A DNA stretch of 33,904 bases from Pseudomonadota bacterium (GTDB taxonomy: Bacteria > Myxococcota_A > UBA796 > GCA-2862545), in the NCBI GenBank assembly GCA_023954855.1, contig JAGSGY010000061.1, positions 1 to 33,904 on the forward strand, in the 5' to 3' direction. This document shows, piece after piece, positions 27,265-33,904 of the stretch. Position 1 is the stretch's first letter. Each line of letters begins with the position of its first letter. The notes under the pieces were generated by a model, which was given only the letters and a program-made list of their open reading frames with translations, searched no databases and had not been told where the DNA came from. The translations under genes were made by a program, and so were the position numbers.

Positions 27265-29637
<2,373 letters not shown>

Positions 29638-29638
<1 letters not shown>

Positions 29639-30468
29639 TGGAGCGCGTCGAACGAAGGGCGAGCTTCGGAGGCTGGCAAGAGGTCTGGGAGCACCGCTCC
29701 GAGGTGCTCGACTGCACGATGCGCTTTGGGGTGTACCTGCCCCCCCAGGCGGCCTCGGGACCGTGTCCGGTGCTCTACTGGCTCTCAGGACTCACCTGCA
29801 GCGAGCAGAACTTCCTGACCAAGGCGGGGGCCCAGCGCTACGCCGCCGAGCACGGCCTGATCCTGGTCGCACCCGACACGTCTCCCCGCGGCGACGACGT
29901 TGCGGACGACGAGGGCTGGGACCTCGGAAAGGGCGCTGGCTTCTACATCAACGCCACCGAAGCCCCGTGGAGCGCGCACTACCGCATGTACGACTACGTC
30001 TGCGATGAGCTCCCGGCCTTGGTCGAGGGCCAGTTCCCGACGACGCGGGCACGCGGGGTGTCGGGGCACTCGATGGGAGGCCACGGCGCGCTGATTGTCG
30101 CGCTGAAGAATCCGGGCCGCTACCGCAGCGTGTCCGCCTTCGCACCGATTGTCGCGCCCACCGCCGTCCCGTGGGGACACAAGGCCTTCGCCGCCTACCT
30201 GGGTCCCGACGAGGGCAGCTGGCGGGCTTGGGATAGCTGCGCGCTGATCGCCGACGCGAGCGAGCGTCTGCCTCTGCTCATCGACCAGGGCACCGCTGAC
30301 GGCTTTCTCGACGAGCAGCTGCAGCCCGAGCGTATCGAGGCGGCATGCCAAGACGCGGGTCATCCCCTGCTCCTGAACCGACGGCCCAGCTACGACCACA
30401 GCTACTATTTCGTGGCCTCGTTCATCGGCGCGCACATCGCCCATCACGCGGCAGCACTGAAGTCCTGA
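29638..30468 (+). CDS. frmB: S-formylglutathione hydrolase
   Basis: A 276-residue esterase-D-type alpha/beta hydrolase. The nucleophile is Ser145 in GHSMGG, and Asp221 (QGTADGF) and His254 (SYDHSYYF) complete the triad. Family landmarks are [14 protein letters not shown] near 47-60 and [18 protein letters not shown] near 94-111. It hydrolyses S-formylglutathione to formate and glutathione, completing detoxification after FrmA. The ATG shares one base with the frmA stop, so it is translated from the same message. Another accepted name for this enzyme is FghA. Confidence 0.96.
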
Positions 30469-30520
30469 CGCAGCCCCTCGAGAAGACGGCGTCGCGCACG
30501 TGAGCAGCTTAGAAGCCGGC

Positions 30521-33500
30521 ATGGCTCACCTCACGCTGCGCGGCGCCCAGACCCACAACCTCAAGCAGATCGACCTCGACCTGCCACTCGGCACGTGGAT
30601 AGCGCTCACGGGTCTGTCCGGGTCGGGCAAGACCACCCTGGCCTTCGACGTACTGCACCGCGAAGGACAGCGCCGCTACCTGGGTGCGCTGTCGGCAAAA
30701 GCCCGCCACTACCTTGGAAAGCTCGGCGCTGCGGACCTCGAGACGCTGACAGGTCTACCCGTCACGCTAGCCACCGGACAAGGAGCGCTGACCCCCAGCC
30801 CGCGCTCCACGGTCGGAACACTGACCGGGCTGCTCGACCTGCTCCGCCTGCTCTACGCACGCGATGGCGTGCATCCTACGGCGACCGACCTGTCCCGCAG
30901 CGACTTCAGCTTCAACCAAGATAGGGGCGCGTGTGCCGCCTGCAAGGGCCTTGGCATCGAGGACCTCGTCGACCCACTGTTGCTCGTGGCGGACGGTTCA
31001 AGGAGCCTTCGCGACGGCGCACTCAGGCCCACCCTGGCGAATGGCTACACGGTGTACAGCCAGGTCACGCTCGAGGTGATGAACACCATCTGCGCCGCCC
31101 ACGGCTTCGACGTGGACACGCCGTGGCAGCAGCTCTCGGATGCCCAACGAGACGTCATCTTCTACGGCACCAAAGCGCTCACCGTTCCGTTCGGCAAGCA
31201 CAGCATCGCCTCGCGCATGAAGTGGGAGGGCATCACCGCCCGCCCTCGCGAAGAGGGCTTCTACCGCGGTCTGATCCCGGTCATCGAGGAGACCCTGAAG
31301 CGCGACCGAAATCCGAACATCCTACGCTTCGTGCGCTCGGTGGACTGCAGCGTGTGCGACGGAACGCGTCTCGGCCCCATCGGCAGAGAGACGACGGTCG
31401 GCCCGTGGACCCTGCCCGAGCTGCTCGCGAAGCCTGCGACAGCGCTCAGCGCCACGCTCGACCAGTTGCCCGCTTCGGCCGTGCTCGACGCGCTGCGACC
31501 GGCAGTGGACCGCCGTCTGCGTCGCATGGGGCAGCTCTCGTTAGGCCACCTGGCCCTGAATCGAATCAGCACCACGCTCTCCGGAGGTGAGGGTCAACGG
31601 CTTCGGCTCGCGGCCCAGCTCAACGCCCAGCTCGGCGGCATGCTGGTCATCCTGGATGAACCGACTCTCGGCCTGCATCCGAGCGCCCAGCAAGGCATGG
31701 CCGAGATCCTGGAGGAGCTTCGCGCTCTCGGCAACACGCTGCTGGTGGTCGACCACGACCCGCACATGGTGCAGCGCGCGGACCACTGGCTCGCCCTCGG
31801 CCCTGGAGCCGGCCCGCACGGCGGAGAGGTGACCCACGCAGGCCCCATGCCCGACAAGGCCCTCCAACACGGGCTCAGCAAGCCCGTGGACCGAGAGCAC
31901 GTCGGCCAGATACGCCTCAGCGGTGCGAGCCTGCACAACCTCGACGGGGTGGAGCTGAGCGTGCCTCTGTCGGCGCTCACGGTGCTGAGTGGCCCCTCGG
32001 GAGCGGGCAAGAGCTCTCTCGTCTTCGGCACACTGCTTCCCGCGCTTCAGGGCAAGCCGGGAGGCCCGTATGTCGCCCTCCACGGCGTGCCCGACAGTCT
32101 GAGCGTGCAGTGGGTGGACGCCAAGCCCATCGGCCGCACGCCCCGCAGCACGCCGGCGACCTACACCGGCCTGTTCGACCTTGTGCGCAAGCGCTTCGCC
32201 GCGACTCCAGCCGCCAAGTCGAGGGGCTTCAAGGCCAGTCACTTCTCATACAACGCCAAGGCCGGCCGATGCCCGGTCTGTGAGGGTCTGGGTCTTCAGC
32301 GCGTCGGCTTGCATCTGCTCCAGGATGTCGAGGTGCCTTGCCCCGCCTGCGCCGGCCAGCGCTACGCCGCTGAGGTGCTTCAGGTCGAGCTCCGGGGACA
32401 GCACATCGGGGCGGTGCTCGACCTCACGGTGGACGAAGCTGAGGCCTTCTTCGCCGACGACCCGCCGATTCACGCCATCTGTGTGGCGTTGTCGCAGCTG
32501 GGCCTCGGCTACCTGCACCTCGGGCAAGCTTCGAGCACCCTGTCGCGCGGTGAGGCCCAGCGGGTCAGGCTCGCGACCCTGCTCGGCAAGCCGCCGCGGT
32601 CGGCGTCGGTGGTGCTACTCGATGAGCCCGACCGGGGGCTGCACCCCGACGATGTCGCCCGGCTGCTCACCTGTCTCGGCCAGCTGGTGGAAGCCGGACA
32701 CACCGTGCTTGCGGTCTCGCATCACCCCATGGTGTGGAGTGCCGCGGACCACAGAGTCGCGTTGCGCGACGGTAGGCTCGCCTCACCCGATGCGGTTCCC
32801 TCGCATCCACCACGCGCCGAGCGCCCGCCGGCGCACCTGCCGAAGCAAATCACCCTTCGCGGTGTGCGCACCCACAATCTCGCCAACCTCGACGTATGCA
32901 TTCCCCATGGGCAGATCACCGCGATCACGGGCGTCTCCGGGAGCGGAAAGACCTCGCTCGCCTACGACACGCTGGCGGCGGCGGCCTGGTCGCGCTTCGC
33001 CGAGAGTCTGCCGTTTCAGGTCCGGCGCTTCATGCGGCAGCTGCCGGCCCCTAACCTCGACAGCGCTGAGGGCCTGACCCCAGTGCTCGCGCTAAAGCAA
33101 GGCCAAGGTCGCGCCGGTCCACGCGCCACCGTGGGCACCCTCAGCGAGATCGATGCGGGTCTGCGCTTGCTGTGGTCCCGCCTGGGTGTCGACGAGGGCC
33201 AGCCCACCGGGCTCAGCGCCAGCCACTTCTCGCCCAACCAGACCATGGGTGCCTGTCCCAGCTGTGCGGGACGAGGCTCGGTACTGCGCTGCGACCCCGA
33301 GCGACTGGTCACGCAGCCCGAGCGCGCCCTCGATGAAGGAGCCATGGAGGGCACGAAGCCCGGTGCCTTCTTTGGCGAGCCCGACGGTCAGTACATGCAG
33401 ACGCTGCGCGCCGCCGCCAAGTCGGCGGGCCTCGATGTCGACGTGCCCTACGCGGACCTCACGCCGGCCGCGCGGCAGCTCGCGCTGTTCGGCGCGGGCG

Positions 33501-33904
33501 AGGCCGTGTTCGATGTCGAGTGGAACTACCGACGCGGCAAGCGCACCGGGTCCCACAGCTTCAAGGGGCCATGGCTTGGACTGAACGCTCTGGTCGAGCA
33601 CGAGGCCAAGGTCCGCGCAAAGCGCAAGAACGCCGCAGAGTGGGCGGTGCCGCTTGCCCCGAGTCCCTGCAACGAATGCGACGGCGAGCGCCTCAGCGAG
33701 GAGGCACGCCGGGTCACGGTGGGCCCGCTTCGACTTCCACAGGCTTCGGCGCTGGAGCTCGAAGCCCTCGACCGAGCCCTCTCGGATCTGCAGCTGCCCC
33801 AGGCCCAGACCGCAGTCGTCGAGGCCATACGCCCGGGCCTCCAGGCGAAGCTCTCGACGCTGATCGAGCTCGGCCTCGGCCATCTGACCCTGGCTCGCCC
33901 GAGC
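30521..33904 (+). CDS. Tandem UvrA-like ATPase lacking UvrB-binding domains, 3'-truncated
   Basis: The frame stays open for 1128 codons to the window end. I start at the ATG of 30521 (MAHLTLRGAQTHNL, the usual UvrA beginning); a GTG at 30500 is an alternative. Unit one has Walker A GLSGSGKTT (31-39), Cys138/Cys141 and CSVCDGTRLG (276-279), signature LSGGEGQR (about 353) and LDEPTLGLHP (about 377), then a second Walker A GPSGAGKSS (491-499), CPVCEGLG (584-587), LSRGEAQR (674) and LDEPDRGLHP (about 701). A second unit begins near 790 (ITLRGVRTHNLANL) with Walker A GVSGSGKTS (804-812). Normal UvrA is about 940 residues with two ATPase halves; this carries at least three. The UvrB-binding segment is missing in both units, as in class II UvrA-like proteins. 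A role in lesion tolerance or drug resistance is inferred. Confidence 0.9.
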   Translation, partial: MAHLTLRGAQTHNLKQIDLDLPLGTWIALTGLSGSGKTTLAFDVLHREGQRRYLGALSAKARHYLGKLGAADLETLTGLPVTLATGQGALTPSPRSTVGTLTGLLDLLRLLYARDGVHPTATDLSRSDFSFNQDRGACAACKGLGIEDLVDPLLLVADGSRSLRDGALRPTLANGYTVYSQVTLEVMNTICAAHGFDVDTPWQQLSDAQRDVIFYGTKALTVPFGKHSIASRMKWEGITARPREEGFYRGLIPVIEETLKRDRNPNILRFVRSVDCSVCDGTRLGPIGRETTVGPWTLPELLAKPATALSATLDQLPASAVLDALRPAVDRRLRRMGQLSLGHLALNRISTTLSGGEGQRLRLAAQLNAQLGGMLVILDEPTLGLHPSAQQGMAEILEELRALGNTLLVVDHDPHMVQRADHWLALGPGAGPHGGEVTHAGPMPDKALQHGLSKPVDREHVGQIRLSGASLHNLDGVELSVPLSALTVLSGPSGAGKSSLVFGTLLPALQGKPGGPYVALHGVPDSLSVQWVDAKPIGRTPRSTPATYTGLFDLVRKRFAATPAAKSRGFKASHFSYNAKAGRCPVCEGLGLQRVGLHLLQDVEVPCPACAGQRYAAEVLQVELRGQHIGAVLDLTVDEAEAFFADDPPIHAICVALSQLGLGYLHLGQASSTLSRGEAQRVRLATLLGKPPRSASVVLLDEPDRGLHPDDVARLLTCLGQLVEAGHTVLAVSHHPMVWSAADHRVALRDGRLASPDAVPSHPPRAERPPAHLPKQITLRGVRTHNLANLDVCIPHGQITAITGVSGSGKTSLAYDTLAAAAWSRFAESLPFQVRRFMRQLPAPNLDSAEGLTPVLALKQGQGRAGPRATVGTLSEIDAGLRLLWSRLGVDEGQPTGLSASHFSPNQTMGACPSCAGRGSVLRCDPERLVTQPERALDEGAMEGTKPGAFFGEPDGQYMQTLRAAAKSAGLDVDVPYADLTPAARQLALFGAGEAVFDVEWNYRRGKRTGSHSFKGPWLGLNALVEHEAKVRAKRKNAAEWAVPLAPSPCNECDGERLSEEARRVTVGPLRLPQASALELEALDRALSDLQLPQAQTAVVEAIRPGLQAKLSTLIELGLGHLTLARPS

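Follow-up and report, generated by a model that had tools for sequence, protein, structure and literature searches.

A fused pair of UvrA-like units, each lacking the UvrB-binding domain, in a family found in many distantly related bacteria

Class I UvrA, as known from E. coli, Geobacillus, Thermotoga and C. thermocellum, is a single dimerising unit that carries a UvrB-binding domain. Class II UvrAs (UvrA2 of Deinococcus radiodurans, Ecm16, DrrC and MtrX) are also single units, of 756-874 aa (PMC10192343), with two ABC halves and two zinc modules per unit (PMC5128194); they keep the insertion domain, have lost the UvrB-binding domain together with zinc module 1, and work without UvrB (PMC10192343, PMC5128194). 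Ecm16, which lacks the same domain, requires its insertion domain and its ATPase (PMC10192343). The protein analysed here resembles class I UvrA in its unit fold, ATPase motifs, insertion domain and zinc modules 2 and 3, but carries four ATPase halves in one chain without a UvrB-binding domain. Each of its units agrees with class II UvrA in having two ABC halves, in the number of zinc modules and in the domains kept and lost, whereas the chain, at 1,533 aa, holds two such units. Two UvrA units per chain are also a feature of the canonical tandem UvrAs (NF001885/PRK00635, the chlamydial-type long UvrA), among them a 1,882-aa protein of the same genome; unlike the protein under study, these retain the UvrB-binding domain. 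A search of open papers on tandem, fused or class III UvrA returned nothing relevant, and a UvrA family that is fused, asymmetric and class II-like is apparently undescribed in the open literature searched; the 2008 review by Goosen and Moolenaar is said to classify UvrAs and could mention fused ones.

The window, i.e. the whole stretch of 33,904 nt that was analysed, is contig C29 in full, and comes from a genome of 6.1 Mb in 178 contigs that is 97% complete. The tandem gene starts at a GTG at 30500 or, as an alternative, at an ATG at 30521, and its frame runs without a stop through position 33904 and past the end of C29. Comparison of the contigs of this one assembly showed that the first 111 nt of contig C174 are identical to window positions 33794-33904, and that C174 extends the frame by 398 residues to a stop at C174:1308. 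The joined protein contains four ABC ATPase halves, i.e. two UvrA units. The join, for which the evidence is the 111-nt overlap together with a layout colinear with that of relatives, is the one weak step in the reconstruction of the gene in this genome. A shared end of 111 nt inside the tandem gene is what an assembly-graph overlap would produce. Since C174 completes the reading frame, the fourth ATPase half that the first-pass annotation had expected beyond the window is present, and the early stop that it had named as contrary evidence does not occur within the 398 further residues. The coordinates of the features are collected in Table 1.

Table 1. Positions of the tandem gene, its parts and related features; positions without a contig or locus name refer to the window
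Feature	Position	Strand	Remark
S-(hydroxymethyl)glutathione dehydrogenase (frmA type)	28529..29638	+	TIGR02818 above cut-off
S-formylglutathione hydrolase (frmB/fghA)	29638..30468	+	TIGR02821 above cut-off
Tandem UvrA-like gene	30500..33904, then C174:112-1308	+	5' 1135 codons of 1533 in the window
Unit A (residues 10-783): NBD-I, insertion domain, signature I, NBD-II, signature II	30527..32848	+	AlphaFold match to UvrA
Walker A, half 1 (GLSGSGKT)	30611..30634	+	
Unit A junction, UvrB-binding domain and zinc module 1 absent (LLRLLYARDG..DFSFNQ)	30839..30919	+	
Unit A zinc module 2 Cys pairs (30932-30943, 31346-31357) around insertion domain	30932..31357	+	PF17755 E ~1e-13
Signature LSGGE and Walker B, half 1	31577..31669	+	
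Walker A, half 2 (GPSGAGKS)	31991..32014	+	
Unit A conserved loop of signature domain II, PIGRTPRSTPATY, unconserved in unit B	32126..32164	+	
Unit A zinc module 3 (CPVC, CPAC)	32270..32350	+	
Half 2 altered signature LSRGE and Walker B LLDEPDRGLH	32540..32635	+	
Proline-rich linker, unit A to unit B	32765..32848	+	
Unit B 5' part (residues 784-1135)	32849..33904	+	Remainder of half 3 and whole of half 4 on C174
Unit B junction without UvrB-binding domain (LRLLWSRLG..HFSPNQ)	33161..33241	+	
Unit B zinc module 2 Cys pairs and insertion domain	33254..33679	+	PF17755 E ~1e-12
Canonical tandem UvrA	L011:4635-10283 (G000:C157)	-	Two full units, both with UvrB-binding-domain-length inserts

Each unit of the joined protein comprises about 750-780 residues in the order NBD-I, insertion domain, signature I, NBD-II and signature II with a zinc hairpin. 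Walker A motifs lie at residues 38, 498, 811 and 1270, and signature motifs at residues 360, 681, 1138 and 1443; the Walker B motif, LDEP, also occurs four times, and there are eight CxxC pairs. The zinc cysteine pairs (145/283 and 591/614 in unit A, 919/1057 and 1354/1377 in unit B) make up two modules per unit. With Pfam profiles, both units matched PF17755, the DNA-binding insertion domain, and neither matched PF17760, the UvrB-binding domain; a canonical tandem UvrA taken as a control did match PF17760. The spacing from the RLLxAR motif to FSFN/FSPN is 14-15 residues in both units, compared with 148-166 in canonical UvrAs. The loss of the UvrB-binding domain from both units, which had been read from the window alone, was thus borne out by the profile search and by the junctions.

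AlphaFold models of the window open reading frame (1,128 aa, covering unit A and part of unit B; mean pLDDT 88.0) and of unit B of an orthologue (742 aa; pLDDT 89.4) were both confident, and UvrA, D. radiodurans UvrA2 and Ecm16 were the best structural matches of both. Z scores were 32.7 for Ecm16 (7sh1) and 34.8 for UvrA2 (2vf7), with class I UvrAs about equal. Against NF001885 (1,809 positions, cut-off 3,054 bits), the part of the protein in the window scored 499 bits and the complete orthologue L065 scored 743, both below the cut-off. The window part scored 826 bits against TIGR00630, above the NCBIfam equivalog cut-off of 729.8; this score is summed over four stretches and two units, and is therefore no proof of orthology. 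Under this standard profile the fused branch would simply pass for 'excinuclease ABC subunit UvrA', a label that may lead the annotation of repair genes astray.

A gene divided over two contigs of a draft assembly could be the product of an assembly or sequencing error, or an inactive relic, yet this is hardly credible here. The overlap of C29 and C174 is exact over 111 nt, the ATPase motifs are conserved in both units, and six relatives in the same order, 47-70% identical, carry the full fusion on a single contig (others are partial). Because these close relatives have the entire fusion within one contig, the fusion is not an artefact of assembly, and the concern that a sequencing error had merged two adjacent genes is also answered by them. 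Among 84,980 species genomes scanned, 274 candidate relatives were found, and the best 80 of them were kept. Single frames that are complete and no shorter than 1,500 aa make up 58 of these 80; their lengths are 1,509-1,946 aa, with possibly untranslated upstream extensions counted in the longest, and some come from genomes that are themselves complete, those of Poly30 and Sulfidibacter corallicola. The artefact reading is refuted at the family level. Carriers are labelled Deltaproteobacteria/Polyangia, Planctomycetota, Bacteroidota/Chlorobiota/Ignavibacteriales, UBP6 and rumen bacteria, together with the Acidobacteriota Sulfidibacter corallicola and Acanthopleuribacter pedis, and the presence of relatives in so many distantly related bacteria argues that the family is real and not a glitch. 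Within the order of the window genome the distribution is patchy: 10 of the 58 genomes searched have the fusion, and a genome of the same genus (G001) is without it. Split versions at three loci (L091, L114 and L124) were considered as separate genes and rejected, as they have the appearance of frameshifts or runs of N.

The two units are not equivalent. In the sampled family, a near-invariant loop of signature domain II, PIGRTPRSNPATY, is kept in A units and is lost or scrambled in B units; the ATPase motifs are conserved in both. In UvrA structures, this loop presumably contacts DNA. The units of the window protein are unequal in the same way, since unit B is without the loop that unit A retains, and the first-pass annotation had indeed supposed two unequal parts. 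Judged from the sequences, the inequality goes beyond mere divergence. Signature domain II contains residues critical for contacts with both DNA and UvrB (PMC6486640; compare PMC7835731). In addition, the second signature of unit A reads LSRGE rather than LSGGE in the subclade of the window protein; the signature at this position has been assigned to the proximal ATP site (PMC6486640), so that the proximal site of unit A may be altered.

In the trees, all A units fell in one clade and all B units in another, and the distances among A units were correlated with those among B units (r = 0.92; Mantel test with 35 proteins, none of 2000 permutations as high). Separate A and B clades and parallel distances show that the family stems from one old fusion, inherited whole across phyla. 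A mixture-model tree placed the A units beside the A units of the canonical tandems (support 99) and the B units beside their B units (support 91), which suggests that both tandem types may have descended from one fused UvrA; the AU p for a single-duplication origin was 0.16, with the alternative not rejected. Unlike the mixture-model tree, a first FastTree run placed the canonical-tandem A units with monomeric UvrA. In the best trees the two units of the window family formed clades of their own, apart from the UvrA2-like rows of class II, with a forced grouping not rejected (AU p 0.106). Across the alternative topologies AU p values ranged from 0.08 to 0.16.

The RLLxAR-FSFN gap is usually 8-22 residues across the family, and among 35 sampled proteins the UvrB-binding domain is gone from both units, except for unit A of L106 (an Acidobacteriota MAG) and a few zinc stubs. 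A second case, from outside this sample, is L099 (a Chlorobiota MAG); in both proteins PF17760 is present in full in unit A and missing from unit B, and the two fall in different clades of the tree. Stubs of 32-43 residues with the cysteines of zinc module 1 occur in unit A of G006, G031, L098 and L107 and in unit B of L116, L120, L127, L137 and G031. The full domains and the stubs make it probable that the UvrB-binding domain was lost repeatedly in the family, which is to us the simplest reading; the tree requires three or more changes of state and by itself does not separate loss from regain. Regain by recombination in L099 and L106 was considered and rejected, as their domains are no nearer to the canonical UvrA of their own genome than to others.

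UvrB independence is not family-wide, because L099 and L106 each keep one UvrB-binding domain, and some interaction with UvrB could survive elsewhere, given that signature domain II is a further site at which UvrB and UvrA touch. These two points, and the presence of UvrB and UvrC genes in the window genome, would fit a protein that still serves nucleotide excision repair, recognising damage and then either recruiting UvrB through signature domain II or letting the canonical tandem UvrA take over the lesion, in which case the fusion would add only specificity. We consider such a role unlikely, since the UvrB-binding domain is absent in all other sampled members through what looks like repeated loss, and class II UvrAs without the domain function without UvrB. 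A separate normal uvrA, for which the first-pass annotation had advised a search, was found on contig C157 and is itself a tandem. Similarly, all 30 other carrier genomes tested have another UvrA-type gene, which is complete in nearly all of them and in two of the 30 was found only as pieces at contig ends.

Further UvrA-type genes were seen in these genomes and their relatives. In the order of the window genome and in Planctomycetota, full canonical tandems, about 1,880-2,060 aa long, were met repeatedly. A third UvrA-like protein of the window genome (L012:4440-7298, on G000:C123) consists of one unit of about 750 aa in which PF17760 is present and the insertion domain was not found. Another family of the order has tandem UvrAs of about 1,660-1,680 aa (L205:2551-7551, L206:2006-6982 and L208:1075-6126) in which inserts of UvrB-binding-domain length are kept and the insertion domain is lost in both units, a mirror image of the loss described above.

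With modest confidence, we favour the reading that the tandem protein is a single-chain, asymmetric, UvrB-independent UvrA of a fused class II type that serves tolerance of DNA adducts or ligands. In it, two UvrA units are fused head to tail and would be differently specialised; these would fold together like a UvrA homodimer, with one DNA groove and four ATP sites. Unit A, with its loop intact, would make strong, damage-dependent contacts with DNA, and unit B, having lost the loop, would act as a partner or regulator. As the UvrB docking domain is absent, normal loading of UvrB would not be expected of the protein. It would on its own bind DNA that is damaged or carries a ligand, and release it again, driven by ATP, which is how the class II proteins UvrA2, Ecm16 and DrrC are thought to act. 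Its role in the cell might then be tolerance of adducts or DNA-bound compounds alongside standard excision repair. That it displaces drugs is a guess by analogy with Ecm16 and DrrC. Overall, what the first-pass annotation had observed is confirmed, and what it had made of the observation is supported in part.

Self-resistance to a specific DNA-binding natural product, with the drug displaced from DNA as for Ecm16, DrrC and MtrX, would agree with the domain loss shared with Ecm16, the fold match to it (Z 32.7) and the patchy distribution. We regard this more specific role as doubtful, however, and somewhat less probable than excision repair: no neighbour recurs among the 80 loci beyond close kin, nothing resembling a biosynthetic cluster lies beside the window gene, and many carrier lineages (rumen bacteria, Bacteroidales) are not known as antibiotic producers. 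A plasmid-borne resistance gene was also rejected as an explanation, as no plasmid record reached 60% identity and the best among the matches listed was 40%. An anti-phage defence function was set aside as well; the PADLOC matches (best mad3) span only ABC-ATPase stretches and were read as generic.

Neighbouring genes raise one more explanation, namely protection from damage by small electrophiles (formaldehyde or alkyl adducts, crosslinks). The formaldehyde detoxification genes frmA-frmB lie immediately upstream in the window genome, with 31 nt between the end of frmB/fghA and the GTG of the tandem gene, and the frmA-type gene is probably co-transcribed with the latter. In four related Planctomycetota-type genomes an Ogt/MGMT-type alkyltransferase gene overlaps the tandem start; at these loci (L080, L084, L087 and L090) the overlap is 3-99 nt long, and the gene is of the O6-methylguanine methyltransferase type (PF01035, VPCHRV). 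Among the relatives examined the frmA-frmB adjacency was not seen, and neither adjacency is conserved elsewhere; the two may be coincidences, and we think this explanation improbable. Assignment of function by neighbouring genes was rejected in general, as no neighbour recurs past close kin.

Returning to the fused class II type, we tentatively propose, as a possibility short of a probability, that the family is a distinct and ancient one of single-chain, asymmetric UvrA pseudo-dimers whose two-fold symmetry is broken, such that one unit reads DNA and the other does not, the UvrB site having been lost from B and then repeatedly from A. If so, it would represent a UvrB-independent, possibly strand-oriented, DNA-damage machine, and the UvrB-free UvrAs, best known for antibiotic self-resistance, would include a fused branch spanning several phyla. 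How a symmetric UvrA dimer chooses a strand or side is an open question. A natural covalent heterodimer, with one unit that reads DNA and one that is degenerate, opens it to experiment, since mutations can be put into either unit of the same polypeptide independently. The one-domain intermediates L099:321-5624 and L106:7209-12491, with a UvrB-binding domain in the first unit, might on this proposal load just one UvrB each, as naturally asymmetric loaders.
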